Assembly (NCBI RefSeq): GCF_000374845.1
Contig: NZ_KB895412.1
Span: forward strand, 567,056 to 631,055
Length of the DNA stretch: 64,000 bases
Direction of reading: 5' to 3'
Origin: Paenibacillus terrigena DSM 21567
GTDB lineage: Bacteria > Bacillota > Bacilli > Paenibacillales > Paenibacillaceae
Below, piece after piece: positions 10,773-59,915 of this stretch (position 1 is its first letter; every line of letters begins with the position of its first letter). Under the pieces are notes generated by a model that saw only the letters and a list, made by a program, of their open reading frames with translations, made no database searches and was not told the origin of the DNA. Both the position numbers and the translations under genes were made by a program.

Positions 10773-10920
10773 CAATGAATAGTGGATCGGGGAGGGTATC
10801 TCTTTCCAGTCGATTCTTGTCCGCCCTTTGCGATGATTGGAATAGTCGGTGGCAAAGGGCTCCCAAAGATCGAACGCAGGCTCTTCCAAGAGACACCCTC
10901 CTCCTACGGGTTATTCATTG
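10773..10920. ncRNA. candidate structured RNA, copy 1 of a two-copy family
   Basis: The element is a long interrupted hairpin. Closing helix: 10773-10781 with 10912-10920 (CAATGAATA/TATTCATTG). Outer helix: 10791-10804 with 10888-10901 (14 pairs, one mismatch). Middle helix: TCGAT 10810-10814 with ATCGA 10869-10873. Inner helix: GCCCTTTGC 10823-10831 with GCAAAGGGC 10852-10860. The apical loop is 20 nt. The same plan with different but complementary helix sequences occurs inverted at 59767-59915. The transcribed strand is not settled. It lies between the two-component terminator and the CotD-like gene. A GTG-started frame crossing it (10782-10979) is probably chance. I do not recognise the class. 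Confidence 0.72.
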
Positions 10921-10934
10921 AACAGGCCATGATG

Positions 10935-10968
10935 CCCGTACCTACCCTTAAATCAGGGCAGGTACGGG
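10935..10968. repeat. inverted repeat between the structured RNA and the coat gene
   Basis: CCCGTACCT (10935-10943) and AGGTACGGG (10960-10968) form a 9-bp stem. There is no T-run on either side, so a terminator role for the minus-strand coat gene is only possible. Confidence 0.5.
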
Positions 10969-10975
10969 ATGGGGA

Positions 10976-11377
10976 TTAGCGGGATTTACGGTTGCTGCGA
11001 GTGCTTTTACGAACGGCTTTAGTACGGGCACGCATGCCACAGTGTACGTCTGATTCGGTGACGTGGCAGAAATGTTGCGGGACAGGGATCGTGTGATGTT
11101 GGTTAACGACATTGACTGGATGAACGATCGGTTGTGTTGCTGTGTGGTACTTGTTGTTAACAACCGTTTGCGTTGGAGCTACAATCGCTGGCAATGTGGA
11201 TGGTTGCATAGGCATAGGCATAGGCATAGGCTGCATTGCGTAAGGGCTAACATTCGATGGACCCATGTTAGATGGACCCATGTTGGATGGACCCATGTTC
11301 GACGGGCCTACGTTCGCAGGACTAACATTAGAAGGATATCCCATTGGTTTCATGTTGCTTCCACAATTACGTTTCAT
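10976..11377 (-). CDS. spore coat protein, CotD-like
   Basis: About 133 residues from the ATG at 11377. That start follows AAAGGAGATGA at suitable spacing; an ATG at 11389 overlaps the ribosome site and is unlikely. The N-terminal half has tandem PSN(M/V)GPSN repeats, then a Pro/Met stretch. The C-terminal half has a His-rich segment (KYHTATQPIVHPVNVVNQHH...HFCHVTESDVHCG), which resembles CotD inner coat proteins, and then a very basic tail. It is probably made late in the mother cell. Family assignment rests on the His-rich pattern, so it is moderate. Confidence 0.7.
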   Translation of the reverse strand: MKRNCGSNMKPMGYPSNVSPANVGPSNMGPSNMGPSNMGPSNVSPYAMQPMPMPMPMQPSTLPAIVAPTQTVVNNKYHTATQPIVHPVNVVNQHHTIPVPQHFCHVTESDVHCGMRARTKAVRKSTRSNRKSR

Positions 11378-11577
11378 TTTTAAATTCATCTCCTTTAGCC
11401 GAATTAATATACAATACGTAATACGCCTCCGCCCTGCTTGTTCATTTGCCCCTGGTATAACAGTTTATTTTTTGTGGTGAAGGTACTATAAGAAGATGGT
11501 ACTATTCGTTATCGGATTCCAAGCTACAATGGAATTATGACCAGGTCATAAAGTTCCAGGTGAGGAGAGGGTAACGG

Positions 11578-13182
11578 ATGATTCATCGAATAGAGCGGAA
11601 CTGGCCGACATTGCTCGGCGCAATATTCATATTCATTGCATTAATCACATTGCTCAAATATTCCATTGATCTCGACTTCATTCATGATTCGACGAAGATT
11701 GGCGCAGGTATTCTGGCGGGGTGCGGACTGGTCGTGGCAGGTCTTCGTGGGGCCCTGCGTTCTAACACGGTCATCAGTGAGGTGTTTACGGGACTCGGTA
11801 TCGCACTGCTCTATATGACCTGCTCCTTCGCAGGTGTCTATTATAGTCTGTGGGACTCGATGGTTGTCTTGTTATCCATGCTCGCAATCACCGTTGGTAC
11901 ATGTACCTATGCAGTTCGGTTCAACTCTCGACTCTTGATGTCCATTGGGCTGGTCGGAGCGATTTTGTCACCTATTGTCATGCAGCCGGTGACGGATCAA
12001 GTATTCTCGTTGTTCCTCTATCTGCTCGTTATTAACTCAGCATTCTGGTATATCAGCGTCATGAAGAAGTGGCTCGAGCTTCGGTTAGTTAGCTTTATTG
12101 GCACATGGATTCTCTATGCCGTGTATTTCATCTTGTTCCATCCGGACGTCGATAGGTTCTGGAGTAAGCCTTTTTTATATGCTCTTGCCGCATACGGCTT
12201 TTATTTCATCGCCATGTTCATCGCTTCGTATAAGGAACAGCTGAAATTCAATGGCTTGCATGTGTACTTGGGAATTGCAAACGCAGTGATCTTCGGGTTA
12301 TGGTCGCTCGTGCTGGTTCGAGGCTTCGTGTCATTCGCGGTACCTATGTTCGTGATGGGTGTTCTGTACATTGCAGCGGCCATTGTGGTGCAGCGGCTTG
12401 TAAAGGTATGGAGTATGCCAGTCATGACGAAGCTTTTTGGCGGATTGCTGCTTGTCATTATTGCAACATCGCAATTCGGCAAAGGATGGGAATATAAACC
12501 GCTGATTAGCGTCTATCTCTGGGTCTTCATTGCCGCAACTGTACTGGTTACTGCGAAATGGTGCGCGATAGAGGGGCTTAAATACGCAAGCGTGACGATC
12601 TGGGCTTCCATTGGTCTCTATTGGTACGTTGTCACGTGGAGTACGCCGCGCGGGGAATGGTTCGGTGTATTCATCCCTTTTCTGAACTGGGGAGCAGTTG
12701 CATGGATGCTGCTTGCTTTATTCGGCTTCTATATGTCGCTTCATTTGGATGTGAAGGGGTTAAGTTCGTGGGGACAAAAAATGATGTCAACGGTATTGTC
12801 CCTTATGAGCCATTTTATTGTAGGGGGCTTGCTAACGGTCCAAGTTCAGACGTTATTCGAAGTGTACGAATTCCGGGGTGTGGGATTAACATTATCGATC
12901 TCATGGGCACTCTACTCCTTGCTCTTGTTCCTCTGGGGAGCGTACAGTAATCAATGGTTCTTCCGGATTTTCGGTACGGCTGTGCTCTTGCTTGTTGCTG
13001 CAAAAACGATGATTATCGACCTTGCTGAACAAGCGACGATTTACAAAGTGGTCGTGTTCCTTGTGTTAGGGGGAATCTGCTTCATGATCTCCTACATTAA
13101 TTCCAAGTGGAACCCTCCGCAAGTGCCAACAACGCCTGCTCAGCCGCAACCAGAAGAATTGAATTGGGAAGATGATCTATAA
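11578..13182 (+). CDS. DUF2339-type multi-spanning membrane protein
   Basis: 534 residues, nearly all hydrophobic, with roughly 14 predicted membrane segments. The repeated IGAGILAGCGLVVAGLR / GLGIALLYM pattern is typical of DUF2339 proteins. A short hydrophilic Pro/Gln tail follows. The RBS is GTGAGGAGAGGGTAACGG. The function of the family is not established. The gene appears monocistronic, with a strong hairpin behind it. Confidence 0.8.
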   Translation: MIHRIERNWPTLLGAIFIFIALITLLKYSIDLDFIHDSTKIGAGILAGCGLVVAGLRGALRSNTVISEVFTGLGIALLYMTCSFAGVYYSLWDSMVVLLSMLAITVGTCTYAVRFNSRLLMSIGLVGAILSPIVMQPVTDQVFSLFLYLLVINSAFWYISVMKKWLELRLVSFIGTWILYAVYFILFHPDVDRFWSKPFLYALAAYGFYFIAMFIASYKEQLKFNGLHVYLGIANAVIFGLWSLVLVRGFVSFAVPMFVMGVLYIAAAIVVQRLVKVWSMPVMTKLFGGLLLVIIATSQFGKGWEYKPLISVYLWVFIAATVLVTAKWCAIEGLKYASVTIWASIGLYWYVVTWSTPRGEWFGVFIPFLNWGAVAWMLLALFGFYMSLHLDVKGLSSWGQKMMSTVLSLMSHFIVGGLLTVQVQTLFEVYEFRGVGLTLSISWALYSLLLFLWGAYSNQWFFRIFGTAVLLLVAAKTMIIDLAEQATIYKVVVFLVLGGICFMISYINSKWNPPQVPTTPAQPQPEELNWEDDL

Positions 13183-13193
13183 ATTCATACGCC

Positions 13194-13242
13194 AAAAAAC
13201 AAAGTGCCAAGGTCACTTAAGACGCGGGCACTTTGTTTTTTT
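13194..13242. terminator. bidirectional terminator
   Basis: AAAAAACAAAGTGCC (13194-13208) pairs with GGCACTTTGTTTTTTT (13227-13242). A-run and T-run flank both sides, so it can end the membrane-protein gene on plus and the small gene on minus. Confidence 0.9.
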
Positions 13243-13266
13243 GAATGCAGGACTAGCCGAACAGGG

Positions 13267-13413
13267 TTAATCCGTTTTCTTCTTCTTCCCTGTGTTGAAA
13301 GGTGTGACCGACTTGGCTCCTTCAATCGTATCATTGACGAAGGCCATGTCTTGATTTTTGGCTTTCATGTTCGTGGTACCGGTATAATTGCCCTTGTGTG
13401 TTTTATTTTCCAT
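13267..13413 (-). CDS. small basic protein of 48 residues
   Basis: Short minus-strand frame starting MENKTHKGNYTGTTNMKAK and ending NTGKKKKTD. ATG at 13413 is preceded by GGGGTGAAGCGCACA, a good ribosome site, and the bidirectional terminator lies just behind the stop. The protein is hydrophilic, Lys/Thr/Asn-rich and lacks Cys. Size and composition resemble small spore proteins, but I recognise no family. The RBS, compactness and terminator make it likely to be real. Confidence 0.65.
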   Translation of the reverse strand: MENKTHKGNYTGTTNMKAKNQDMAFVNDTIEGAKSVTPFNTGKKKKTD

Positions 13414-13526
13414 TGTGCGCTTCACCCCGGTTATGAGATAGTTAAGACGATACAGTTAAAGTCTAGCCAATGACTAGGCTTTTTATGTGTTTGTGGTTAT
13501 AATGATAAAGATATTTTAGACGAATA

Positions 13527-13535
13527 TGTTATAAT
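13527..13535 (+). promoter_or_regulatory. extended -10 upstream of ychF
   Basis: TGTTATAAT, a perfect extended -10, lies ~35 bp upstream of the gene. A second TATAAT occurs at about 13498. Confidence 0.55.
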
Positions 13536-13569
13536 GATTAGATGAACCTTGAAGGAGTTGCGAATAGAT

Positions 13570-14670
13570 ATGGCATTGAAAGCGGGAATCGTTGGTTTGC
13601 CGAACGTAGGTAAATCGACTTTGTTTAATGCAATTACACAAGCAGGTGCGGAATCAGCGAACTATCCTTTCTGTACGATTGATCCGAACGTGGGCGTCGT
13701 TGAAGTACCGGATGAGCGCCTAGATAAATTGACAGAGTTGGTTACACCGAATAAGACGGTACCTACAGCATTCGAATTTATCGATATCGCTGGTATTGTG
13801 CGCGGTGCGAGCAAAGGGGAAGGACTAGGGAACAAGTTCCTTGCACATATCCGTGAAGTCGATGCGATCGTACATGTGGTGCGCTGCTTCGTAGATGAGA
13901 ACATCACGCATGTCGACGGCAAAGTTGATCCAATCAGCGACATTCAGACGATCAACTTGGAGCTCGTGCTTGCGGATCTTGAGAGCGTTGAGAAGCGTAT
14001 CGAACGTTCCAAGAAGAATATGAAGGGCGGTAACAAGCAGTACGCAGCCGAAGTGGAAGTGCTGGAGAAGGTAAAAGAAGCTCTCTATGCAGACATGCCT
14101 GCCCGCAGCGTGGAATTAACGGATGATGAGAAATTGGTGATTCGTGATCTTCACTTGCTTACGATGAAGCCTGTTCTATATGCGGCAAATGTGAGTGAAG
14201 ATGGCGTCACAAGTGCTGACGACAATGAATATGTTATCAAAGTAAAGGAATTCGCAGCGGCCGAGAATGCAGAAGTCGTGCCGATCAGCGCCAAAGTAGA
14301 GGCGGAGATTGCAGAACTTGAAGGCGAAGACAAAGCGATGTTCCTCGAAGAATTGGGTCTTGAGGAATCTGGTTTGAACCGTCTTATCAAAGCGGCTTAC
14401 CGTCTACTTGGATTGTATACGTATTTTACAGCGGGAGTACAGGAAGTTCGTGCTTGGACGATTCGTAAAGGGATGAAAGCACCGCAAGCGGCAGGTGTCA
14501 TTCATAGTGACTTCGAACGCGGCTTCATCCGTGCAGAGGTTGTATCCTATGATGATCTCGTTGCAGCAGGTTCGATGAACGTTGCGAAAGAACGCGGACA
14601 GCTTCGTCTCGAAGGTAAAGAGTATGTTGTTAAAGACGGCGATGTTATGCATTTCCGGTTTAACGTATAG
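13570..14670 (+). CDS. ychF: redox-regulated ATPase YchF (Obg family)
   Basis: 366 residues, the usual length. It begins [17 protein letters not shown] with the P-loop at residues ~8-16. It has the switch motif [19 protein letters not shown], a coiled-coil insertion at ~130-200 and a C-terminal TGS domain. YchF/OLA1 proteins bind ribosomes and hydrolyse ATP rather than GTP. The RBS GAAGGAG is at ~13551-13557 with ~12 nt spacing. An in-frame TTG upstream overlaps the site and is rejected. Confidence 0.96.
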
Positions 14671-14688
14671 AACTTGTATACCTTTTCT

Positions 14689-14717
14689 AAGGCTGGGGGC
14701 AGATGCCCTCAGCCTCC
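14689..14717 (+). terminator. weak hairpin after ychF
   Basis: AAGGCTGGGGGC and GCCCTCAGCCT form a stem with a 4-nt loop. It has no T-run on plus, but it lies between converging genes. Confidence 0.45.
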
Positions 14718-14735
14718 TCACTATTTGGGGACGCC

Positions 14736-15290
14736 TCAAGGGACGAAGTAGCTGCGTAAGATCAGGTAGTCGATGGAGAGGGATTGGAATTTCTGACCTT
14801 CAGGGCTATTCGGATCATAGGGATTGGACTGCGGCAGTATCCCCAGCCAGACGTAGGATTCGTTACTCTTCAGCACTGTCCCTGGGATCGGCCCATCTTC
14901 GGCACGCAGCTTCTGATAAGCTTTGCGAGAAAGGCGTGTGATGGTTAATAAAGGCGCTTCTTTTTGGGTGAACTTACCACCCGGTGAGAAGACGAATACC
15001 GTCTCCCATTCCGCTGTTGGAATTTCTTTTCCTCTACGCTCGATCGCAATGAAATTATTTTTCCATTTGGTAGGTAAATTAAATTTGAACTGACATTGTT
15101 CACTATGAAATACATTACCTGTATACTTAATCGGCTTCGGGGGTTGGTCGTACATGAGGTGTTCCTGCTCACTCGGTTTTTCCGGTTCTTTGGTCTCTTC
15201 CTTATTTGGTTCAGGTTGACAGCTAGTCAGGAGAATCAAGATGATTAGGGCGAGCGCAATACGGAAAGGACCGTTCTTCGATGGTTTCAT
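14736..15290 (-). CDS. lipoprotein of unknown function
   Basis: 184 residues. Type II signal peptide with lipobox LTSC at ~residues 21-24, then a Glu/Pro/Lys-rich linker (~25-50) and a ~130-residue domain. The domain starts with FHSEQCQFKFNLPTKWKNN, reminiscent of secreted beta-sandwich domains, and no family is assigned. The RBS AAAGGAGGAC precedes the ATG. It converges on ychF and is divergent from prfA. Confidence 0.8.
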   Translation of the reverse strand: MKPSKNGPFRIALALIILILLTSCQPEPNKEETKEPEKPSEQEHLMYDQPPKPIKYTGNVFHSEQCQFKFNLPTKWKNNFIAIERRGKEIPTAEWETVFVFSPGGKFTQKEAPLLTITRLSRKAYQKLRAEDGPIPGTVLKSNESYVWLGILPQSNPYDPNSPEGQKFQSLSIDYLILRSYFVP

Positions 15291-15561
15291 TGAACGTAAG
15301 TCCTCCTTTTATTCTGGTGACTATCATAACACGTAGTATGGCAATTTTCCGCTTGAATTTATGCTGGCTTGGATAATTGACGAATTTTGCAAGAGATGAC
15401 TAGGTTTTTCGATGGTTTCTGGTTATAATGGTTAAGGACTTTGGGTCCGTACGTAAAATGTGAGAGAGTCAGGTGATTCCGGTGTAGATAGACAATATGC
15501 TGGAGACCGTTCAAATAGATAGCATATGTAGAAAATAATCAATAATTGAGGTGATTCCATC

Positions 15562-16632
15562 ATGATCGATAAATTGCAATCGTTAGCAGATCGTTATGAT
15601 AAATTGAGTGAGTTATTGTGTGATCCAGATGTGACGAACGATTCGAAGAAGCTGCGTGAATATTCGAAAGAGCAGTCCGATCTGCAAGAGACGTATGAAG
15701 CGTACACAGAATATAAGACCGTCATGGAAGAGCTCGAAGCGGCGAAAATGATGCAAGCTGAGAAGCTCGACGATGAGATGAAAGAAATGGTCAAAATGGA
15801 GATTGATGAGCTTAGCTCTCGTCAGAAGGAGCTGGAGGAGCGTATTCACATTCTCTTGCTGCCAAAAGATCCGAATGATGATAAGAACGTTATCGTCGAG
15901 ATCCGCGGTGCGGCAGGCGGCGATGAAGCGGCGTTATTCGCTGCGGATTTATATCGGATGTACACGCGTTATGCAGATGCACAAGGCTGGCGTGTTGAAT
16001 TGATGGATGTGAACATGAACGACCTTGGCGGCTACAAAGAGGTTATCTTCATGATCAATGGTAAAGGTGCTTACAGCCGTCTGAAATACGAGAGTGGCGC
16101 ACACCGCGTACAGCGTATTCCGGCAACGGAATCGGGCGGACGTATTCATACATCGACTTCAACGGTCGCTGTGCTACCGGAAGTTGAAGATCTCGATATT
16201 GAAATTCACGATAAAGATATTCGCGTAGATACGTTCTGTTCGAGTGGTGCGGGCGGTCAGTCCGTTAATACGACGAAATCGGCCGTTCGTGTAACGCATA
16301 TTCCAACAGGGATCGTGGCAACATGTCAGGATGGGAAATCGCAGAACTCCAATAAGGATAAAGCATTGCAAGTATTGCGCGCTCGGATCTTCGACGTGAT
16401 GCGTCAAGAAGAAGAGGCAAAATATGCAGGCGAGCGGAAGAGCAAAGTCGGAACGGGCGACCGTAGTGAGCGTATTCGTACGTACAATTATCCGCAGAGC
16501 CGTGTGACGGATCACCGTATTGGCCTAACATTGCACAAGCTGGATGCTATCATGAACGGTGACATGAATGAGATTATTTCATCGTTGACGCTTGCCGAGC
16601 AGGCTGAAATGATGGAGAAAGTCAACGCGTAA
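15562..16632 (+). CDS. prfA: peptide chain release factor 1
   Basis: 356 residues. The N-terminal coiled-coil domain is followed by [16 protein letters not shown], the stop-codon-recognition domain with [19 protein letters not shown], and the GGQ motif in [12 protein letters not shown] that triggers peptidyl-tRNA hydrolysis at UAA and UAG. The RBS is TTGAGGTGATTCC. It is followed after 51 bp by prmC, which methylates the GGQ glutamine, the conserved pairing. Confidence 0.98.
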
Positions 16633-16683
16633 CAGCTCCGCTCGAGAGCATGATCTTTCGTAGAGAAAAGAGCGTGGATATAG

Positions 16684-17553
16684 ATGAATGGTACAATTCG
16701 CGAAGCCTTGCTAGAGGCTTCTTCTTTTTTAGCACAGCATCAAGTGATGGAACCGTCGCATAATGCGGAGCTCTTGCTCTGCCACTTGCTTGGCTTAGGC
16801 CGTGCAGAGTTCTTTATGCGAATGACGGAGCTGTTCCCGGTGGAACATACGGCGGCATGGCAAATGGTGCTGGCGCGCAAAGCGGCCGGTGAGCCTGCAC
16901 AATATATCATAGGGGAGCAGGAGTTCTATGGGCTTCCTTTTGAGGTAACCCCTGATGTATTGATTCCGCGGCCGGAGACGGAACTGCTCGTCGAAGCGAT
17001 CGTGAAGGAGGGGCGCCGTCTCTGGCCTGACGGCGAGCCGACGGTCTGCGACATCGGCACCGGGAGCGGAGCGATTGCGGTGACGCTGGCGGTTCAGTGT
17101 CCGATGTGGCAGGTTAACGCATCGGACATCTCAGGCGCTGCGCTGGCTGTAGCGCAGCACAATGCAGCGCGCCACGGCGCAGCGGCGCGCATCGCGTGGC
17201 ACAGCGGCGACCTGTTGGCGCCGCTGGCGGGCATGAGATTGGACATCCTGGTGTCCAATCCGCCTTACATCCCCGCGGAGACGATCGCGGGGTTGCAGCC
17301 CGAGGTGCGCGACTTCGAGCCGCGCACCGCATTGGACGGCGGTACGGACGGACTCGATCCGTACCGCCGTATGCTCGCGCAGCTGCCGCTGCTGGCAGCC
17401 GTGCCGCGCGTCGTGGGCTTCGAGCTTGGGCAAGGCCAAGCTCGTGAGGTCGCCGCCTGGATGGAGGCGGCGGGGCATTGGGACACGGTGTACATCGTGT
17501 CTGATTACGCGGGCATTGAGCGGCATGTGATCGCGGTGCGTGAGCAGGCATAA
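16684..17553 (+). CDS. prmC: release factor glutamine methyltransferase
   Basis: 289 residues. N-terminal helical domain (~1-80), then a Rossmann methyltransferase domain with VCDIGTGSGAIAV (SAM-binding motif I) and the NPPY active-site motif at ~residues 195-198. It N5-methylates the Gln of the GGQ motif in release factors. The second half (about 17000-17530) is much richer in GC, with many GCG/CGC codons, than prfA or the first half. It is a possible member of the GC-rich islands seen in this window. Confidence 0.96.
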   Translation: MNGTIREALLEASSFLAQHQVMEPSHNAELLLCHLLGLGRAEFFMRMTELFPVEHTAAWQMVLARKAAGEPAQYIIGEQEFYGLPFEVTPDVLIPRPETELLVEAIVKEGRRLWPDGEPTVCDIGTGSGAIAVTLAVQCPMWQVNASDISGAALAVAQHNAARHGAAARIAWHSGDLLAPLAGMRLDILVSNPPYIPAETIAGLQPEVRDFEPRTALDGGTDGLDPYRRMLAQLPLLAAVPRVVGFELGQGQAREVAAWMEAAGHWDTVYIVSDYAGIERHVIAVREQA

Positions 17554-17631
17554 GCGTGTTATGAACGGTATATAAGAAAAAGGGGCTGTCCCACATTGTT
17601 CGTATGGCGGGGGAATGCCCCGAATTTAAGC

Positions 17632-17682
17632 GAAAGGACCTCAAACTCCACTGTGATGTGGGGCAAGAGGTCTTTCTTTTTA
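17632..17682 (+). terminator. hairpin terminator after prmC
   Basis: GAAAGGACCTC (17632-17642) pairs with GAGGTCTTTC (17667-17676), followed by a T-run. Just upstream, CCCACAT (~17590) can pair with ATGTGGG (~17657), giving competing folds. Confidence 0.7.
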
Positions 17683-17796
17683 ATACACAATATTCATCAC
17701 TATGTGGGGGGCGTATCGTCTTGTCTAGCTGTCCGTCACGCAAGCTCTATACTGGATTATTGCACTAATTTCCGTACAATTTTCCCCAATACAGTG

Positions 17797-17934
17797 CCTA
17801 TGTTGGAAAATTGCACTGTAGCTGTTGAATTTCAAGGTATATCGTAGGAATTAGCCTACGTATCCTGCAAATATCCAACATAGGTGCGTAATAGGCACTT
17901 ATTGATGCTCTATCCTGCATATATCCAACTTAGG
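17797..17934. repeat. ~50-bp intergenic repeats (locus 2)
   Basis: TATCCTGCAAATATCCAACATAGG at 17861-17884 recurs at 17911-17934 with two changes (50-bp period). An inverted copy of its core lies at 17797-17815 (CCTATGTTGGAAAATTGCA). Related but more diverged sequence is at 651-790. No coding potential is seen between 17690 and 17990. Confidence 0.7.
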
Positions 17935-17997
17935 CCACACCGCAGGACGTGGCATCCCCATGGCCTTCAGACGACGATCTCCGAGGATTTCACCACC

Positions 17998-18354: not shown

Positions 18355-18494
18355 GGCGGTTCCCTCCTCCAATAGTATCCTTCAAGTAACTACACCACTT
18401 CAAAGTGCGTACTTCCTTTTTGATCCGTCTGACTCTAGAATATACCTAGTTTCCCGAATAAACAATCATGGATATTATGGAGGTATATAACATT

Positions 18495-19127: not shown

Positions 19128-19132
19128 CGCCG

Positions 19133-19702: not shown

Positions 19703-19706
19703 GGAA

Positions 19707-19735: not shown

Positions 19736-19772
19736 CATGGATTTATTTTTTCATAGAATGCTAGGTTGATAG

Positions 19773-23160: not shown

Positions 23161-23177
23161 GATCCTATCGAGACAGA

Positions 23178-23292
23178 TCCGATGTAACTGGCGACGAAGT
23201 GGATATTACCACGGTGGAGCATCGGAACATACGGCCGGTCGCCTGGGCAAAAGAGCAAAGACGTGGATTCGACGCGTCATGCTCTTTTTTTC
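23178..23292 (+). promoter_or_regulatory. ZTP (pfl) riboswitch
   Basis: P1 CCGATG/CATCGG encloses ACTGGCGAC and a GTGG/CCAC hairpin followed by GGTGGAG. The 3' part is CGGTCGCCTGGGCA, the signature of ZTP riboswitches. GGCGAC can form the pseudoknot with GTCGCC. A terminator follows immediately, so ligand binding should permit read-through. Known targets are one-carbon and purine genes, matching glyA downstream. Confidence 0.93.
23250..23292 (+). terminator. riboswitch-controlled terminator
   Basis: AAAGAGCA and TGCTCTTT with an inner GACG/CGTC stem, followed by TTTTTTT. It begins right after CCTGGGCA of the aptamer. Confidence 0.85.
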
Positions 23293-42167: not shown

Positions 42168-42803
42168 TGACTTTCTCCTTTCACCTTTGAATAATTCATA
42201 TTATGTCTGCACAGGATTAGTGACACTTGACCTAAATGAATTGGGCTACTTATAGTCGCCTTTAAGGGGATTTACTGACGAAGCACCCTCTAACGGACCC
42301 ATGAGCGCTTATTAGTAAAAGTTCGAGGTTCACGACGTTGGCACAAAGGACGAGCCAATAATTGCAAGTGTTAACCGAGGAAGAGCACGAATTCCAGTTT
42401 TCATGGGACAGGAATACTGCATTATCGGTTGGAGAGCGGAGCGCTCGCCTTTGAAATCGGGAAAATACAATAACTCGCCCAATCACATTTCCCGATTTCA
42501 ACAGCGATGGAAACCGATACACCTGCGTTCCCCCACTACATTTTCATCTCCATCACGCTCCATCGAGCTACCAGCATCCTTTCAGTCACAAACTCTTCAC
42601 GAATTTGCATTCTCTCCCCCGCATATATAGCAAGTACAAGGGTTGTTAGACACATTAAAAAATACGCCGAAAACTACAAATGAAAACCCAGGTTTTGGAT
42701 AGACGATATTGGTAGGTTTTGTTATAATTGTTACGGGTTTATTACAGTTTTTTTCGTTTTGTATAATAAAATTATATAGTTGTGAACGGAGGCGAGAGAG
42801 GAC
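42168..42803. other. long intergenic region upstream of the nuo operon
   Basis: 636 bp without a convincing gene; frames of 75-86 residues lack ribosome sites and family character. It contains a 12-bp inverted repeat GAAATCGGGAAA/TTTCCCGATTTC (42453-42464, 42488-42499) and, near its end, AT-rich promoter-like sequence. Confidence 0.55.
42720..42728 (+). promoter_or_regulatory. extended -10 upstream of nuoA
   Basis: TGTTATAAT ~75 bp before the start codon. A second -10-like GTATAATA lies at ~42761. Confidence 0.5.
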
Positions 42804-51397: not shown

Positions 51398-51401
51398 TCC
51401 C

Positions 51402-52967
51402 ATGAATCCAACTGAAACGATCATGCCACTGCAATGGGCCGATCTTGCCACCTTGGCACCGGAATTAACATTGGTCATCGCGGCAATTCTCCTATCTCTG
51501 CTAGATTTATTCTTACCGAAAAGGGTCAATCGTGATGGGCTAGGTGTATTCTCCTTGGTAGCTGTACTGATCTCCCTCGGATTTGTCGTCTGGCGGATGA
51601 TCGATATGAGCAGCGGGGCAGAGACGGCTTCAACAGCTCAGGCGCTGCATCTACTGGGGCAGAGTTACCGGGTTGATGATTTTGCGAATCTGCTGAAAAT
51701 TATTTTCTTAGGCGGAACGGCACTTATTATTTTCATGAGTCTAGGATCGATTCGTGAGGAAGAGATTCCGCATAAGGGTGAGTATTACTACTTACTACTG
51801 CCTGCGGTACTCGGTGCGATGATGATGGCATCCTCTGGCGATCTGATTACGCTATATGTTGGGCTTGAATTGTTGAGTATCACTTCCTATGTGCTCGTAG
51901 CGCTTAAGAAAAATGATCTCAAATCCAATGAGAGTGCATTCAAATATGTCGTACTTGGAAGTATCTCTTCCGCCTTCATATTGTATGGTATGTCCTTTCT
52001 CTATGGGATGTCAGGATCGACGGATCTTGCTACGATTGCTCAGATGTTATCGCAGCATTTGGACGATTTCAAAGTCTTAATCTATGTCAGCTTCTTCTTG
52101 ATGCTCGCAGGATTCGGGTTCAAAATCGCGGTTGCCCCATTCCACGTATGGGCGCCAGATGTGTACCAAGGGGCGCCGACGCCAGTTACTGCGTTCCTCG
52201 CGGTCGTTTCCAAGGCAGCTGGCTTTGCGATTTTATTCCGAATCGTCTATAACGTATTTTTCCCGCTCGCGAGCCAAGAATATCTGTATATTAGCAGTGA
52301 TGTCATGCTCACGCTCCTGATCGTCGCTGCGATCGCGATGGTTATCGGGAATACGGCAGCACTTCGTCAACGGAATATGAAGCGATTGCTGGCCTTATCC
52401 GGTGTTGCGAACGCAGGGTACTTGCTCGTACCGATCGGGTTATCCATGACACCGCTGCATGTCTCGAATTTCTCCGAGTTCGCGTTTTATCTTATTGCCT
52501 ATCTATTCATGAACATCGGCGCATTCGCCGTGGCGATGATTGTGAGTCGGGATGCGGGCCATGATGAGATCAGCGGCTTCGCAGGGTTGTACTACCGGGC
52601 TCCTTTTACCGCGGTGGGAATGACGATCCTGCTCCTGTCCTTTGCGGGCATACCGCTTACGGGCGGGTTTATCGGAAAGCTCTTCATTGTTCTCGGGGCC
52701 GCACAGATGAAGGCCTATTGGATCGCTGCGATCATGATCATTACCAGCGTCATCTCACTGTACTACTACTTCGGAATCATCCGTCAAATGTATATGCGTT
52801 CGGTGGGTGAGATGCCTTCCATTCGATTCCCAGCACCACTTGGGATTACGGTATGGATCTGTGTTGCTGCAACGATCTATCTCGGGGTTATGCCGAATAC
52901 GGTGCTAGATGTGATCAATAAATTTTTTGCCCTTTCGTTTGATTTATTCATTCGAGTAGGGAGTTAG
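51402..52967 (+). CDS. nuoN: NADH-quinone oxidoreductase subunit N
   Basis: 521 residues, antiporter-like. LYVGLELLSITSYVLVALKK, VAPFHVWAPDVYQGAPTPVTAFLAVVSKAAGF and QRNMKRLLALSGVANAGYLL identify it. Last gene of the operon. nuoE, nuoF and nuoG are absent, so the NADH-oxidising module is missing. Confidence 0.97.
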   Translation: MNPTETIMPLQWADLATLAPELTLVIAAILLSLLDLFLPKRVNRDGLGVFSLVAVLISLGFVVWRMIDMSSGAETASTAQALHLLGQSYRVDDFANLLKIIFLGGTALIIFMSLGSIREEEIPHKGEYYYLLLPAVLGAMMMASSGDLITLYVGLELLSITSYVLVALKKNDLKSNESAFKYVVLGSISSAFILYGMSFLYGMSGSTDLATIAQMLSQHLDDFKVLIYVSFFLMLAGFGFKIAVAPFHVWAPDVYQGAPTPVTAFLAVVSKAAGFAILFRIVYNVFFPLASQEYLYISSDVMLTLLIVAAIAMVIGNTAALRQRNMKRLLALSGVANAGYLLVPIGLSMTPLHVSNFSEFAFYLIAYLFMNIGAFAVAMIVSRDAGHDEISGFAGLYYRAPFTAVGMTILLLSFAGIPLTGGFIGKLFIVLGAAQMKAYWIAAIMIITSVISLYYYFGIIRQMYMRSVGEMPSIRFPAPLGITVWICVAATIYLGVMPNTVLDVINKFFALSFDLFIRVGS

Positions 52968-52987
52968 TCGATAAAAGTATTGAAGAG

Positions 52988-53014
52988 AGCCTTCCTTCGC
53001 GGAAGGCTTTTTTT
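52988..53014 (+). terminator. terminator of the nuo operon
   Basis: AGCCTTCC pairs with GGAAGGCT, loop TTCGC, followed by TTTTTT. Confidence 0.93.
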
Positions 53015-53086
53015 GCCAGATGCAATCTTCTACAAAGTAAAAGGGGATTAAGTCCGGCGTATCGAAGAAGTAGAGGTACCTATTTT

Positions 53087-53340
53087 TAGAGGTTGTTCAA
53101 AAAGTCATCATTTGATCACGAAGTCATTCAAGAAGCATAACCGTCATCGAATCTTGCGTTCACCTTCGAAGTCCGGTACTCATTTAGGTTTCGCCTAAAC
53201 TCCGTTCCTCTAAAAGTTTTTCGAAGAAAAACTCGCTACGGAAGCATATGCCCTTCAGGTTCTCGCAACCTTAGCATATGCTTACGATGTAAGTTTTCAT
53301 AGAAAACTTTCAGGTGCTGAAATGCCGATTTTTTGAACAC
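53087..53340 (+). repeat. dispersed hairpin repeat, copy C (long)
   Basis: It has the same ends as copies A and B (AGAGGTTGTTCAAAAAGTC ... CGATTTTTTGAACAC) but a ~215-bp interior full of palindromes: AGTTTTTC/GAAAAACT (~53213), AGCATATGC/GCATATGCT (~53244 and ~53272), and AAGTTTTC/GAAAACTT (~53291). It encodes nothing. Located 55 bp before the subtilase gene. Confidence 0.8.
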
Positions 53341-53394
53341 TCATTTTTAGAAGAAACATGAGATAGGTAAATGGATGGTAGAATAGGAGAAGCA

Positions 53395-56232
53395 ATGAAA
53401 AGATTACGATACCGCATCGTCGTCGTAGTGATGTGTATGCTGCTACTGCAGTACATGAGTGAAGCAACAACAGGGATGATGACAGCAAAGGCAGAGCAGT
53501 CGCAGCTGCATTCAACGAATAGCAATCAGATTGCGCAGGAAGCACAAATCGAAGAAGATCAACCGAAATCCTGGATCGTAAAATGGAAAGGCTCGTCCCA
53601 AGATCAGGGTTTATTACATGATACAGAAGTTCTAAGCAAGCAAGAGGCTGTAAATGTCTATGTTGTACGTCTGAAGCAGGGGATTGAACCGATGGCTTGG
53701 TTGGCACGGGCTAGAGAATCTGCCGAAGTGGAGTATGTGCAGTCGAATAATCCGGTAACGGTGCTCAAGGTGCCGAACGATACCCATTATGAGAGTCAGA
53801 AATATTTGCGCCAGATTCATGCTGATTCGGCTTGGGAACAAGTCACAGGTAACACCAAGCTTACGATCGGCGTCGTGGATACCGGGGTGGATTTGAAGCA
53901 TGCGGATTTGCGAGATAATTTGGTGGATGGCGTTAATCTGATTAAGCCTAGCCAGCTTCCGCAGGATGATAATGGACATGGGACGAGTGTCGCGGGTGTG
54001 ATTGGAGCCGTGGGGAATAACCGATTGGGCGTTAGCGGCATATTATGGGATGCAAGAGTAATGCCGATTAAGGCGCTGGATTCCTCGGGATCGGGTGATG
54101 AAGATAAGCTCGGCGAAGGGATTGTCTATGCGATTGAACATGATGTGAAGATCGTCGTGCTATCCGTAGGCTTGTATCGGTATTCAACCTATATGCAGCA
54201 AATCGTGCAATACGCAGAGAGCAAAGGGGTATTACTCATCGCAGCAACGGGGAATGATGGAGCGGAGTTGGCCGGAAAAGTAGCCGTGAAATATCCTGCG
54301 GCATATCCCGAAGTGATCGCTGTCGGTGGGACAGCTGATTTGAAGACCGCAGAGCCACGCTCGAACTATGGTCCAGAAGTGGATGTCGTTGCTCCATGGC
54401 GGGTCTATACCACAGCGTTAGGTGGAGGCTACACAAGCGATGAAGGAACTTCGATGGCTGCGCCGCAAGTTGCAGCTGTCGCAGCGATGATCTGGTCCAA
54501 ATATCCGGATATGAAGCCTTATCAGATTCGCAATTTAATTCGCCAGTCGGCACAGGATCTTGGAACGATGGGATGGGATGCGAAGACGGGGTACGGTCTA
54601 CTCCGCGCAGATCGGGCATTGACGATGAAACCAAAGGAGGATATTTACGAGGATAACGGAAGTCGTGAGATCGCGAAGGCGTTTCCGATTGATACTTCGA
54701 TGTCTGCTGTACTGCAAGGAGAGGATGAAGATTGGTTCTATGTCAATGCACCTTATGATGGGACCTTGACCCTTCAGACACAACTTATTCAGGGCGGAAC
54801 GCCACTGCAGCTGACCTATTACACTTCGACGAAAGCCGGAGGAACCAAAGTTGCAAGTCTAACGAATACGAAGACACAGATTCCAGTGAAAAAGGGCAAA
54901 AATATTTTGCAATTTAAGCTGACAAATATGAAGTCCAAAACACCTGTAACGTACAAATTGATTTCAAGATTTACGATATACAGTGACCCATACGAGCATA
55001 ACAATAAGCAATACCAGGCTTTTACACTTCCGACACGAAGTCAGGAGGTCATTGGAACCTTCCATCAGGACGGAGATGAGGATTGGTTCGTGTTCCGTGT
55101 GACGGATCAAGGAACATTACGGCTCAAGCTCGATAGTGATACGGCACGTATCGATCCGGCGATGGAGATCAGCGGTCCTGGGATGGAGAAATTAACAATC
55201 GATTCTTTCAGTGAGGATAGCTCAGACAGTGAGAGCATTACGCTTGTGGATATCAAGCCGGGTCAGTATTATATGCGGGTCTATAATGCGATTTCGCCAA
55301 AAGCAAGTGCTGTTGCCGGTGAATATAAGCTATCCATCCAATACGTTACGCAATATACGGATCCCAATGAACCGAATGACAAGAGCTATCAAGCGGTAAC
55401 AGCAGTGTCAGATACCGATTATATGGGCGTATTCGGATCGAATACAGATGTGGACTGGTTCGAATATCGTGTAGACCAGAAGAGTTATGTGGAGCTAAGT
55501 GTTAGAGGCATTCCTTCGAACCGTGTTGTTACAATGAACGTATATGATCGCAAGCAGAAGGCATTATTCAAGATGTCGAATAGCTTAGGTAATACATCGC
55601 TCAAATCAGCACGAATCATGGAGCCGGGAACGTATCTCGTACGATTGTCGACCAATCAAATGTTTAATGGACAATACTATCAATTCAAAATGCATGCAGA
55701 AACACTTATAGCCGGATTTCGAGATATTAAAGGCCACTGGGCGGTTCCAGCGATTACGGCTTTGACGGAGCGGCGATGGATTGGTGGGTATGATGGGTAT
55801 CGCTTCGAGCCAGATCGAGGGATCACTCGGGCGGAAGCAGTCTCCATCCTAAGCAAGGCTTTTAAGTTCAAAGCAGGGAATGCGGTTCAGTATAGCGATG
55901 TCAATGTGAAGCATTGGGCGTATGCCGATATCGCCAAAGCTGAAGCAGCAGGGATTGTACATGGTTATCAGGATGGCACCTTCGCGCCGAACCGGTTCGT
56001 TACACGTGCGGAGATGGCAGTGATGATCGGTAATGCGATGAAGGAGAAGCCGAGAGGAAGCGGTAAAGGTCCTTTTACCGATGTGAGTGTGAATCACTGG
56101 GCTGCCCCGATGTTGAGTCAAATGAAATCACGTGGATATTTGAAAGGTTACAGTAATGGATCTTTTAAGCCGGACGCTTCGGCGAGCCGGGCTGAATTCA
56201 CGACCATGTTATACGAAATTTTGGTTAAATAA
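53395..56232 (+). CDS. S-layer-anchored subtilisin-like serine protease (S8, PPC, 3x SLH)
   Basis: 945 residues from ATG at 53395 (AGGAGAAGCA). Signal peptide (~1-32), propeptide-like segment (~55-125), S8 domain with Asp162 (VVDTGVD), His195 (DNGHGTSVAG) and Ser353 (DEGTSMAAP). Three bacterial pre-peptidase C-terminal-type repeats follow, each with (E)DxDWF (~430-780), then three SLH domains (~785-945: FRDIKGHWA, YSDVNVKHWA, FTDVSVNHWA) for wall anchoring. A surface protease. Monocistronic or followed by the DUF1146 gene 29 bp later. Confidence 0.95.
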   Translation: MKRLRYRIVVVVMCMLLLQYMSEATTGMMTAKAEQSQLHSTNSNQIAQEAQIEEDQPKSWIVKWKGSSQDQGLLHDTEVLSKQEAVNVYVVRLKQGIEPMAWLARARESAEVEYVQSNNPVTVLKVPNDTHYESQKYLRQIHADSAWEQVTGNTKLTIGVVDTGVDLKHADLRDNLVDGVNLIKPSQLPQDDNGHGTSVAGVIGAVGNNRLGVSGILWDARVMPIKALDSSGSGDEDKLGEGIVYAIEHDVKIVVLSVGLYRYSTYMQQIVQYAESKGVLLIAATGNDGAELAGKVAVKYPAAYPEVIAVGGTADLKTAEPRSNYGPEVDVVAPWRVYTTALGGGYTSDEGTSMAAPQVAAVAAMIWSKYPDMKPYQIRNLIRQSAQDLGTMGWDAKTGYGLLRADRALTMKPKEDIYEDNGSREIAKAFPIDTSMSAVLQGEDEDWFYVNAPYDGTLTLQTQLIQGGTPLQLTYYTSTKAGGTKVASLTNTKTQIPVKKGKNILQFKLTNMKSKTPVTYKLISRFTIYSDPYEHNNKQYQAFTLPTRSQEVIGTFHQDGDEDWFVFRVTDQGTLRLKLDSDTARIDPAMEISGPGMEKLTIDSFSEDSSDSESITLVDIKPGQYYMRVYNAISPKASAVAGEYKLSIQYVTQYTDPNEPNDKSYQAVTAVSDTDYMGVFGSNTDVDWFEYRVDQKSYVELSVRGIPSNRVVTMNVYDRKQKALFKMSNSLGNTSLKSARIMEPGTYLVRLSTNQMFNGQYYQFKMHAETLIAGFRDIKGHWAVPAITALTERRWIGGYDGYRFEPDRGITRAEAVSILSKAFKFKAGNAVQYSDVNVKHWAYADIAKAEAAGIVHGYQDGTFAPNRFVTRAEMAVMIGNAMKEKPRGSGKGPFTDVSVNHWAAPMLSQMKSRGYLKGYSNGSFKPDASASRAEFTTMLYEILVK

Positions 56233-56261
56233 TGGGTTGAAATCGGAAGGAGGAGCTGCGC

Positions 56262-56507
56262 ATGGATGATTCGATGACATCGTTGGTTGGTTTAAGTGGA
56301 TTGGTCGGTATTATCGTAACGTTAGGCTGTATTGGACTCGCCTGGTGGGCGCTTCAAGCGGTGAAGTTTGATTTGTTCTTGAGGAATGCCAAGGGGCCCC
56401 AAGGAAAGCTGTTACACGTGTTCCTATCGGTGATTATCGGTCACTGGGTGTCTGAATTCGTGCTCCAATATTGGGAGTGGACACAGCGGCTTAAGGGTTT
56501 GTTCTAA
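56262..56507 (+). CDS. DUF1146 small membrane protein (YwzB-like)
   Basis: 81 residues, two membrane segments (~10-32 and ~48-65), with WWALQAVKFDLFLRN and the C-terminal half VFLSVIIGHWVSEFVLQYWEW, as in DUF1146. Function unknown. In Bacillus it sits between the atp operon and murA, and the position relative to murA is kept here. RBS GGAAGGAGGAGCTGCGC. Confidence 0.85.
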   Translation: MDDSMTSLVGLSGLVGIIVTLGCIGLAWWALQAVKFDLFLRNAKGPQGKLLHVFLSVIIGHWVSEFVLQYWEWTQRLKGLF

Positions 56508-56608
56508 ATTGAGCCATGATTAATCTGCAGTCTGCAAGTTGTGTCGAATAACATCGAACAATTGTGTGAAGACTGGTAAATAAGAAAATGAATAGAAATG
56601 TTACGATT

Positions 56609-56637
56609 TTGTAACTATTTTAATAAGTTCTTGATAT
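56609..56637 (+). promoter_or_regulatory. promoter candidate upstream of murA
   Basis: TTGTAA (56609-56614), 17-bp spacer, TGATAT (56632-56637). An AACCC...GGGTT inverted repeat (56649-56671) lies in the leader. Confidence 0.5.
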
Positions 56638-56764
56638 GATCGCGAAAATAACCCTTGTAAGTCTTTAGGGTTGAATGGTAATATGAACTTTGAGCAAAAC
56701 AGGCGTGTCATTATCTTTGTTATTTTGGAGAAAATGGTAAAAATTTATCGCGGAGGGAACCAGA

Positions 56765-58105
56765 ATGAGCAAATTTATCGTCCGCGGCGGCAAACGGTTA
56801 ACCGGAAGTGTTCGCGTCAATGGTGCAAAGAACTCTGTTCTTCCGATAATCGCTGCCTCTCTACTGGGGGAAGATGGAGTAAGCGTGATCTATGACGCAC
56901 CTCCTCTTGACGATGTTATGACGATCAATAAAGTACTAGGGGTATTAGGGGCAGAGGTTACATATCTCAATGAAACGATCCGTGTCAATGCACAGAACAT
57001 TGAGTCATGCGAAGCACCTTATGAATATGTTCGTAAAATGCGTGCATCGTTCCTTGTTATGGGACCTTTATTAGCACGATTGGGCCACACTCGTATTTCA
57101 TTGCCAGGCGGCTGCGCGATCGGCACAAGACCGATTGATCAGCATTTGAAAGGCTTTGAAGCGATGGGTGCGGAAATTGGCCTTGGCCAAGGGTATATCG
57201 AAGCGAAAATTAATGGCCGGTTACGCGGTGCGAAGATCTATCTTGATGTCGCAAGTGTAGGGGCAACTGAAAATATTATGATGGCAGCGACGTTAGCTGA
57301 AGGCGTGACGATCATTGAGAATGCAGCCAAAGAACCTGAAATCGTGGATCTCGCGAACTATCTGAATGCGATGGGTGCGAAGGTGCGTGGCGCAGGAACG
57401 GGAATCATTCGAATTGAAGGTGTTGAGAAGCTGCAAGGTGCGGAGCATACGGTAATCCCGGATCGTGTTGAAGCGGGAACGTATATGATTGCTGCAGCGA
57501 TGACAGGTGGCGATGTCTACGTCGAGGGTGCTATTGCCGATCATTTAGGACCAGTTATTTCGAAGCTGCAAGAGATGGGCGTAACGGTAGAGCCAGACGA
57601 GAATGGCATTCGTGTTACTGCGGATCGTCCACTTCGTTCAGTTGATGTGAAGACTTTACCTTACCCAGGATTCCCGACAGATATGCAATCCCAGATGATG
57701 GCGTTGCTACTCATCTCCGAAGGGACATCGGTTGTAACGGAGACGGTGTTCGAGAACCGCTTCATGCATGTGGATGAGTTCATGAGCATGCGCGCATCTA
57801 TCAAAGTCGATGGCCGTACGGCTGTCGTTAGCGGGGGATCGAAGCTCTTCGGTGCGAAAGTAACGGCAACGGATTTACGTGCAGGTGCAGCTTTAATCTG
57901 TGCAGGATTGGTTGCAGAAGGTACGACGGAAGTGAGCGGCGTGCATCATATCGACCGTGGCTACGTGAACTTGGCTGAGAAGCTCTCGAAATTGGGTGCA
58001 GATATTTATCGTGTATCCTACGATGAATCTAAGCTGAATCCACTCGAGGTGGAGAAGAAAGAAGAGAAGAAACCGCTGTTCCAAGTGCAGCCTACTTGGG
58101 CATAA
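56765..58105 (+). CDS. murA: UDP-N-acetylglucosamine 1-carboxyvinyltransferase
   Basis: 446 residues. Active-site Cys117 in [15 protein letters not shown] (also the fosfomycin target), substrate residues NGAKNSVLP, and [17 protein letters not shown]. It transfers enolpyruvate from PEP to UDP-GlcNAc, the first committed peptidoglycan step. The short charged tail (EKKEEKKP) is extra. RBS GGAGGGAACCAGA. Confidence 0.98.
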
Positions 58106-58121
58106 CTTAACCTTTGAATGT

Positions 58122-58159
58122 AGAGACCGAGATGACGATTTGTCGTTTCGGTCTTTTTG
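58122..58159 (+). terminator. terminator of murA
   Basis: AGACCGA pairs with TCGGTCT with an inner ACGA/TCGT stem, followed by TTTTT. Confidence 0.85.
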
Positions 58160-58392
58160 TGTTGTTGCAACGGAGTCGGAGTGAGGCTTTAGAATAAATC
58201 GTGAAATACTAGGGTGGTTCTTTTTGGGGAATACTAGATTGGGATGTGTTGGACATCTTATTTAGTACTAGATCATAGAACGTGAATCTAAGCACGGTAA
58301 GGTGAAATCGATTCTATTCGAAGTTCTAGCATGTCTTCTCGCTTCATACTAATAAGTAGAGTAGAAAGACAAGCAGACGGAGGAACCTAGCA

Positions 58393-59649
58393 ATGACACG
58401 AATGACGGTGAAGCTTTCAGAGGATCACGCCCGTCCTGCGGAGGACGGGCCTAAGAGCAGCGCCAGCGCACGTGCGGACCGCACTGTGCGCGTGAGCGCT
58501 AGCCCCACCGCGGGCGTGCAAGCACCCGCCCGCGAACCCCGCGTCCCGCGCGGCGAAGTCGTCGCCCGCGCGGGACGCAAGCCGCCGCGCAGGCTGACGC
58601 GGCGGGGGCCGCTCGCCTGGGCGGCGGGAATGCTCCTGCTGTGCATGATCATTCCCGCGCTGCTCGTGCAGCGGCAGCACACCCCTGTGACGGACGAGAC
58701 AGTCGCCGTCCGTGAACCCAAACCCGCGCCGAGCCCGCCTCTGCAAGAGGCTGTGCCGCGCGAACCGCTTGTCCGCGTCTACCTCGCGGGCGACCAAGCG
58801 ATCGAGAAAGTCACGCTCGAACAATATGTCCGCGGCGTTGTTGCCGCCGAGATGCCGAGTGAGTTCGAGATGGAAGCCCTCAAAGCGCAGGCGATTGCAG
58901 CGCGCACCTTCATTGTTAGACGGATGGCGGATCAAGATACAACCGGCGTTCCTGTGAAGGGGGCGGATGTGACAGATACCGTCACCCATCAAGCGTATTT
59001 GCCGATCAAGACACTCAAGTTGAACGAGAACCGCAAAAAGCTCGCTCGGTTGAGCCAAGCCGTCAGTGAGACACGCGGAATCGTCATGACTTATAAAGGT
59101 TCACCCATCGAGGCATCCTTCTTCTCGACGAGTAACGGGTATACCGAGAATTCCGAAGATGTGTGGTCGAATAAAATACCATATCTGCGCAGCGTGTCGA
59201 GTCCATGGGATAAGGCGATTGCGCCGCATTACACGGATACCGTCCGTATGACGCTCGATCAATTTATGAGACGATTACGCGTGTCACTGCCTTCCTTACC
59301 GGCTTCGGCAAGTGTGGCGCGGAAACAGCAGGCTTATGCGAACGCCGTCGAGCCTCGCGTATTATCCAAGACCGAAGGGCACCGGATTAAGCTCATCCGG
59401 ATTGGCGGCAAAAATTACACGGGCAAGGAAGTGCGAGAGAAACTGGGCCTTCGCTCAAGTGAATTTACATGGAAGATTCGTGATGGCAATATCGAGATCA
59501 CGACATACGGTTATGGCCATGGTGTGGGGATGAGTCAATGGGGAGCGAATGGGATGGCAAAAGAGGGCGCGTCGGTAGAAGAGATTCTAAGACACTACTA
59601 TACGGGCATCTCTTTGGAACAATCTGCAGAGTTCCTGCCTCAGGAATAA
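58393..59649 (+). CDS. spoIID: stage II sporulation protein D
   Basis: 418 residues. A long, Arg/Pro/Ala-rich cytoplasmic N-terminus (~1-72), one membrane segment (LAWAAGMLLLCMIIPALLV, ~73-92), then the SpoIID domain: VTLEQYVRGVVAAEMPSEFEMEALKAQAIAARTF and YGYGHGVGMSQWGANGMAKEG. A lytic transglycosylase acting with SpoIIM and SpoIIP in engulfment. Bases ~58430-58830 are very GC-rich. CATACTAA at 58345-58352 resembles a sigma-E -10, but the -35 is poor. Confidence 0.95.
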   Translation: MTRMTVKLSEDHARPAEDGPKSSASARADRTVRVSASPTAGVQAPAREPRVPRGEVVARAGRKPPRRLTRRGPLAWAAGMLLLCMIIPALLVQRQHTPVTDETVAVREPKPAPSPPLQEAVPREPLVRVYLAGDQAIEKVTLEQYVRGVVAAEMPSEFEMEALKAQAIAARTFIVRRMADQDTTGVPVKGADVTDTVTHQAYLPIKTLKLNENRKKLARLSQAVSETRGIVMTYKGSPIEASFFSTSNGYTENSEDVWSNKIPYLRSVSSPWDKAIAPHYTDTVRMTLDQFMRRLRVSLPSLPASASVARKQQAYANAVEPRVLSKTEGHRIKLIRIGGKNYTGKEVREKLGLRSSEFTWKIRDGNIEITTYGYGHGVGMSQWGANGMAKEGASVEEILRHYYTGISLEQSAEFLPQE

Positions 59650-59766
59650 CTAGCAGGCGGGGGTAGATGTATCTATCTTTAACAAGCTTGTCTGGGCTTC
59701 AATTCAATAGCCCCGCAAGCCCCCTTGCTCCCCCGAATTGCAGCATGTTGCCAAGTCCCTTCTTCT

Positions 59767-59915
59767 ATATGAAATTAAAAAGGAGAAGAAGGTGTTCCAC
59801 GTAAGAGTTTACGTCCGGCCTTTGGTAGCCCATTCCATCCATAACATCTAATCAAGGGAATGGGCGGACAAGAGCCGGCTGGAGTGGAACACCTCTTCGG
59901 ATCTACTTTTCATAT
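59767..59915. ncRNA. candidate structured RNA, copy 2 of a two-copy family (inverted relative to copy 1)
   Basis: Closing helix: ATATGAAA 59767-59774 with TTTCATAT 59908-59915. Outer helix: 59785-59800 with 59884-59898 (one bulge). Middle helix: CCGGC 59815-59819 with GCCGG 59874-59878. Inner helix: GCCCATTCC 59828-59836 with GGAATGGGC 59857-59865. The apical loop is 20 nt. Read on minus, it aligns with copy 1: TCTTGTCCGCCC, GGGCTNCCAAAG, ACGYARRCTCTT and GATC-containing ends are shared. It lies between spoIID and the sigma-F promoter of spoIIQ. On minus, CCTTTTTAATTT follows the outer helix. Strand undecided. Confidence 0.72.

Follow-up and report, generated by a model that had tools for sequence, protein, structure and literature searches.

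Palindromic elements of Paenibacillus terrigena as probable old copies of an IS1182-type miniature element with a structured core

A 64,000-nt stretch of the Paenibacillus terrigena DSM 21567 genome (assembly GCF_000374845.1, contig NZ_KB895412.1, positions 567,056-631,055), referred to here as the window, carries three copies of a palindromic element built around an interrupted hairpin. These are most probably old copies of a non-autonomous, palindromic miniature inverted-repeat transposable element (MITE) of IS1182 type, which has a structured core and is widespread in the order Paenibacillales. Two of them had been described in an earlier note, at 10773-10920 and, inverted, at 59767-59915, and their places, helices and unpaired motifs are borne out by the sequence, although the palindrome is longer than first described, gaining a few pairs in copy 1 and reaching 59735-59953 in copy 2. 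Two covariance models were used, R1, built from 12 copies of the P. terrigena genome, and R2, built from 68 copies. The structured core lies at 10789..10905 in copy 1 (a 117-nt model match on the + strand; R1 E 7.3e-25; R2 111.7 bits, E 1.1e-25) and at 59783..59899 in copy 2 (model match on the − strand; R1 E 2.7e-25; R2 117.3 bits, E 4.3e-27), and the third copy, with a diverged core, lies at 42413..42527 (match on the − strand; R2 46.1 bits, E 3.5e-9). The strand of the model match, + for copy 1 and − for copy 2, is the one read in the earlier note and is called the first-note strand; the opposite strand is the proposed RNA strand (− for copy 1, + for copies 2 and 3). Genomes compared are designated by G-numbers and loci by L-numbers; G001 is the sister genome, and G001 and G002 are the two congeners of the P. 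terrigena genome.

The evidence for mobility comes from relatives, other Paenibacillus genomes in which apparently young copies have the look of mobile DNA and the element appears as a unit with IS1182-type inverted ends placed at intrinsic-terminator stem-loops, with a whole stem-loop outside each end. In a subfamily of G190, the whole unit reads as a copy-specific hairpin, CAGAGTGTCGAGAAACC, an arm, the core, an arm, GGTTTCTCGACAGACTC, and the matching hairpin with an outside T run; it measures about 210 nt from end to end and is thus too short for a transposase gene. An IS1182-like inverted-end motif of 17 positions, CAGNCTGTYGARAAACC, picked after the end-bearing copies and the insertion sequences (IS) had been viewed, is present at both ends of 26 of 255 copies with no more than 4 of 17 mismatches, against 0 of 255 in an outward-read control, and 15 of these 26 copies are from G190. 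Inward and outward counts are 41 and 2 at up to 5 mismatches, and 99 and 47 at up to 6. Between the outside flanks of the 26 end-bearing copies, similarity passes the 95% point of the null in direct orientation in 17 cases and in inverted orientation in 14. In 30 of 255 copies the two flanks share an exact direct repeat of 14 nt or longer, part of these being tandem copies of the element; exchanged pairs share none. Direct repeats of a whole hairpin adjoin ends resembling terminal inverted repeats (TIRs) at L124 (27 bp), L228 (22 bp), L261 (19 bp), L174 (18 bp), and L123 (18 bp). It had been said beforehand that mobile copies with target-site duplications would speak against the RNA reading of the earlier note; such copies occur in related genomes, together with a matching IS1182-family insertion sequence.

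That insertion sequence is found at 15 places in G182 with equal DUF772 domain score, ends in CAGCCTGTTGAAAAACCC and CAGATTGTTGACAAAGCCC, and in each of the six copies examined has one hairpin repeated on both sides. Its frames match Pfam DUF772 and DDE_Tnp_1_6, and in one copy the two open reading frames reach 211 and 258 bits against the NCBIfam IS1182 transposase, for which the cut-off, set for the whole protein, is 270. G136 contains an insertion sequence with CAGCCTGTTGAGAAACCC as well as, at L126, an element with GAGCTTGTTGAGAAACCC. An IS1182-family transposase may have moved the element, recognising its ends and stem-loop targets. A DUF772 gene was found in 4 of the 12 genomes searched, and a TIR search at five G190 loci outside the listed elements returned units lacking the core, halves of elements or a single end, with no transposase recognised by eye among the frames listed. 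Separately, IS1182-family elements at L340, L341, and L353 carry a small inverted repeat, CCTGTTGA..AACAGG, at the very left end.

The family is far larger than the two copies first proposed. Searches of the P. terrigena genome by blastn at E<=1 give 9 places with copy 1 and 14 with copy 2, the last few being weak; R1 gives 16 matches at E<=0.1 and R2 at least 25 at E<=1e-6, 30 candidates having been scored. Among relatives, 26 of 59 genomes match R1 at E<=0.001 (the P. terrigena genome included), and across Paenibacillales 256 of 296 genomes, in 36 of 48 genera, match R2 at E<=1e-5 with 12 candidates scored per genome, so that covarying homologues, for which a covariance-model search had been suggested, are plentiful across the order. 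One genome, G190, contains 103 copies. Class-wide, 13 of 121 genomes match, 9 of them in the family of P. terrigena (its own genome included) and 4 outside the order, the latter weakly (E 2e-10 to 6e-8). Of the matches listed from a pattern scan, most were in Paenibacillus and a few in Cohnella and Saccharibacillus; three further matches, in Pseudomonas, Pelagimonas, and Longimicrobiales, came without a model match and were taken as chance. An ordinary two-copy small RNA (sRNA) is ruled out by the copy number.

Copies persist at the same sites between species and also differ between them. When 14 P. terrigena loci were compared with the regions around congener copies, 11 proved occupied in G001 and 6 in G002, and the positions of the window copies are common to the sister species. 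Tandem copy numbers vary between genomes at matching loci (2 v 1, 1 v 4, 1 v 2), and at borders read by eye as purB-purC and pheS-pheT only part of the Paenibacillus species have a copy (L191 3647-3763; L166 1412-1533; L185 1028-1148). At L076 (G001:C1:6653469-6654134) the single copy of the P. terrigena genome corresponds to an array of four, or perhaps five, in which two types alternate. Reduced forms include a half element in G154 and core-less units in G190; the short units at L320 and L335 of G190, with element-like ends and without the core, either arose by internal deletion or belong to a separate repeat. Mobilisation in the P. terrigena genome itself is at best historical.

Inside the unit, between arms that vary from copy to copy and are often self-complementary, lies a core of about 115 nt, an interrupted hairpin with conserved unpaired motifs and with helices that covary throughout the order. 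The observation that the helices differ and remain complementary holds well beyond the original pair of copies. Among the 12 P. terrigena copies, 21 of 35 pairs show a double change that keeps the pairing. In the alignment of 68 copies, which was fitted to the structure and is hence biased toward covariation, double changes occur in 32 of 35 pairs, 92.0% of pair cells are standard against 64.6% in shuffles, and the covariation score is 0.70 against 0.21 when shuffled and 0.09-0.15 with slid partners. The folds of copies 1 and 2 are better than 200 of 200 dinucleotide shuffles on either strand, with z-scores of −4.15 and −6.78 on the first-note strand and −5.28 and −6.18 on the other. A chance hairpin is ruled out by the shuffles and the covariation. 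Sequence conservation in the core is found in TCTTGTCC or CTGTTG, in CAAAG, in ACGY..RCTC, and in the apical GATTAGA. Searches of Rfam at the curated score gave no match at the element in the window or in 20 related loci, the sub-threshold matches near copy 1 being chance-like, which agrees with the earlier failure to recognise a known RNA class. The only Rfam match within the window is a ZMP/ZTP riboswitch at 23174-23255 on the + strand (58.4 bits), and a S10-Clostridia ribosomal leader at L051 (2174-2275, + strand) scores barely above its threshold.

The palindrome continues beyond the core into arms that differ between copies. Against a null of exchanged arms, their self-complementarity passes the 95% point in 59% of the 257 copies; paired stretches reach 60-90 nt per side in some copies. 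At one orthologous site in two species (L094 and L069), the arms are almost wholly different and are complementary in both. Over 13 orthologous comparisons, in which some loci were used twice, 480 arm pairs are unchanged, 22 are double-changed and still complementary, 150 are broken by one change, 15 are broken with changes on both sides, and 164 fall in gaps. Arm pairing may be partly kept at the DNA level, through hairpin-templated repair or a cruciform; the 22 compensated against 150 singly broken pairs imply that such repair, if any, is incomplete.

A covariation signal can also be obtained from DNA palindromy, and the two sources were compared through their strand sense, given that pairing kept for RNA makes G.U commoner than A.C on the transcribed strand. 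Terminator-like hairpins of the studied loci, used as a control (n=50), have G.U 22 and A.C 7, and tRNAs have G.U 9 and A.C 0, with only 5 distinct tRNAs, too few to be used alone. The arms lack any strand sense (G.U 273, A.C 302 in 152 copies), so that a large part of the compensatory signal is due to DNA palindromy and compensation alone cannot tell RNA from a DNA palindrome here. On the first-note strand of the core, G.U and A.C number 71 and 122 in helix 1, 6 and 8 in helix 2, 12 and 41 in helix 4, and, with a conserved U.G pair set aside as a fixed feature, 11 and 16 in helix 3, or 100 against 187 over all helices. Helices 1, 2, and 4 together give G.U 89 against A.C 171, reversed on the opposite strand (p 4e-7), and differ in this asymmetry from the arms (p 4e-4), the counts being cluster-columns from 107 clusters that are not fully independent. 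The arms behave as DNA; the variable core pairs incline towards RNA read from the opposite strand, one conserved pair being discordant. A comparison of folding energies, in which the reverse strand was slightly better and the G.U share about equal, was set aside.

Gene context favours the same strand. Gene calls were simple open frames, and context was assigned where the nearest frames of at least 90 aa lay within 250 nt on both sides; as raw counts from partly related, non-independent copies and without a genome-wide baseline, the 152 copies divide into 51 between convergent genes, 62 between co-directional genes with the opposite strand in the mRNA, 30 with the first-note strand in the mRNA, and 9 between divergent genes. 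The preference of 62 over 30 has p 0.001, and without the first loci it is 44 over 23 (p 0.014). The strand chosen in the earlier note is therefore probably wrong, one conserved U.G pair being the part that fits it. Its wider contention, RNA function rather than a mobile DNA palindrome, is not supported in its second half: the arms covary without RNA strand sense, and the RNA-like signal is mostly on the opposite strand. What survives of the RNA interpretation is the covariation and the wobble asymmetry of the core, bar that one pair; the exclusion of a mobile palindrome finds no support.

To judge from sequence evidence, the element would be mainly a mobile palindrome, and its core may have a second role as RNA, probably within spacers and at the 3′ ends of transcripts. 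The core would be read mainly on the strand opposite to the first-note strand, most likely as a stable hairpin bounding, protecting or processing mRNA, and such action in transcript 3′ ends or intercistronic parts could be the reason why fixed copies persist at the same gene borders. A more far-reaching proposal can be offered only tentatively. The core, with its conserved bulge and apical loop, might represent a structured RNA that is new, occurs throughout the order and is read from the opposite strand; riding a terminator-seeking IS1182-type MITE, it would give many transcripts within a genome the same 3′-end or intercistronic module. Alternatively, the folded DNA hairpin might be the recognition target of the transposase, which would explain the palindromic arms.

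Of the window copies, copy 1 is the sole one flanked on either side by hairpins with a common stem. Copy 1 sits between a response-regulator gene and a minus-strand frame, and its outer arms, CAATGAATA at 10773..10781 and TATTCATTG at 10912..10920, pair with each other without assigned strand, as seen in the sequence and its folds. Directly after the response-regulator gene, to the left of the copy, is a terminator-like hairpin on the + strand, GAGTACCTGC...GCAGGTACTC followed by a T run (10729..10764; sequence and fold), and to its right is an unstranded hairpin, CCCGTACCT...AGGTACGGG (10935..10968; sequence, fold, and sister copy), that shares a GTACCT/AGGTAC stem with the left one. The shared stem is clearer in L071, the sister-species counterpart, which has GTACCTGC..GCAGGTAC on both sides. 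The two flanking hairpins of copy 1 would represent an eroded target duplication. Copy 2 separates spoIID from a gene for an M23 peptidase; as these two genes are on the + strand, an mRNA across the copy would contain the proposed RNA strand. Folding pairs the outermost arms of copy 2, GAATTGCAGCATGTT (59735..59749) and AACATGCTCGTAATTC (59938..59953), both unstranded, and no flanking hairpin duplication was seen at this copy. The gene downstream of copy 3 was read by eye as nuoA, and the region matches the P. selenitireducens locus L209, which has three tandem copies.

Several observations weigh against descent from an IS1182-type MITE. In the window, no copy bears an IS1182-like motif at each of its two ends, and 229 of the 255 copies do not show clear ends at both sides. 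The loops of the hairpins flanking copy 1 match better inverted than direct, as judged by eye, and because of this, and because only a stem is shared, the target duplication at copy 1 is only inferred. Among the 26 end-bearing copies, the flanks are better in direct orientation in 12 and in inverted orientation in 13, which is not decisive; similarity near even in the two orientations is expected where targets are palindromic. No DUF772 gene was found in the P. terrigena genome, G001, G002, or G190 (8 of the 12 genomes being negative), so that these genomes have either no partner or one of a different kind. Conservation of the core across the order exceeds what a simple MITE explains. The conserved U.G of helix 3, present in 90 of 107 clusters, is a standard wobble on the first-note strand only, and once it is included the core sum is even (190 v 190). 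Finally, no clean unoccupied target was found in the own-genus or G190 comparisons.

Candidates for such an empty site were considered and rejected. The locus of L093 is broken at the element in both G001 and G002 and is rearranged, and that of L080 is rearranged with other inserted repeats. For a G190 copy, G154 retains one element half, and the aligned stretch of G231 is without the element and without the terminator hairpin; both look like deletions rather than unoccupied targets. At L118 (G001) and L119 (G002), homology with the L093 site ends inside the element, on either side, and the break points of the rearrangement thus seem to lie in the element.

Three other explanations were weighed against the IS1182-type MITE. 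According to the first, the element is a pure DNA palindrome, a piece of mobile junk without an RNA role, and its arms stay complementary through hairpin-templated repair or through gene conversion from one arm to the other. The lack of strand sense in the arms speaks for this account, as do the even core sum obtained with the conserved U.G pair and the reduced copies of G154 and G190, but it is unlikely overall, as it is at odds with the conserved bulge and loop sequences, with a core wobble asymmetry that differs from that of the arms, with the strand preference, with copies being few where genes diverge (9 of 152, counted without a baseline), and with the many singly broken arm pairs for each compensated one in orthologous comparisons. 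A stand-alone structured RNA class, either an sRNA or a cis-regulator, whose dispersal is secondary and whose flanking hairpins are the terminators of its neighbours, is less probable still. The strong covariation and conserved unpaired motifs across several families of the order, the core wobble asymmetry, the positions kept between species, and the lack of an Rfam family all suit such a class; set against them are copy-specific hairpins that match left to right within copies, some exactly, ends in common with an IS1182-family insertion sequence, the 103 copies of a single genome, and an orientation to genes that is not constant. A REP/BIME-like repeat, mobilised as a single-stranded hairpin by a transposase of the Y1 (RAYT) type, would likewise be an imperfect palindrome with a conserved unpaired motif (here GGACGYnnnRCTC), intergenic and in tandem clusters, but is highly improbable in view of target duplications of 18-27 bp and inverted ends in common with a DDE-type insertion sequence.

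If the elements are IS1182-type MITEs with a structured core, a large and apparently unannotated repeat family exists in a well-sampled bacterial order, with copies also inside apparent operons (read by eye as purB-purC and pheS-pheT). The family illustrates a trap for covariation-based RNA discovery, in that DNA palindromes of mobile elements pass covariation tests, and the comparison of G.U with A.C in arms and core helps to separate an RNA signal from that of a DNA palindrome. It also provides natural cases of whole-terminator duplication, a route only drawn as possible in PMC5678879. A literature search among open-licence PMC papers found nothing on this repeat family among the papers listed, the name Paenibacillus is absent from the main text of PMC3733652 and PMC2267715, and the family is apparently undescribed.

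Among known systems, the IS1182-family insertion sequences share with the element its stem-loop and terminator targets. In staphylococci, IS1272 and TnSha1 target stem-loops, often terminators, without a primary-sequence preference, and the stem-loop is deleted or replaced with no target duplication, according to PMC5678879 and PMC4923244; duplication of a whole stem-loop is drawn in the former as a possible pathway only. Unlike IS1272 and TnSha1, the present element is too short for a transposase gene, forms one long palindrome, has a conserved core, and has its stem-loop duplicated. The bcr1 repeat is another dispersed sequence, of about 150 bp, with mobile features and a conserved fold. It is named in PMC3733652 and PMC2267715, and a cited title describes it as specific to the Bacillus cereus group. 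Terminator duplications and order-wide spread are features seen for the present family. The REP, ERIC, NEMIS, and RUP repeats, as treated in PMC3733652, resemble the element in being palindromic, gene-adjacent, and co-transcribed with their neighbours, with a possible effect on mRNA, whereas the present family has other ends and is found in other taxa.

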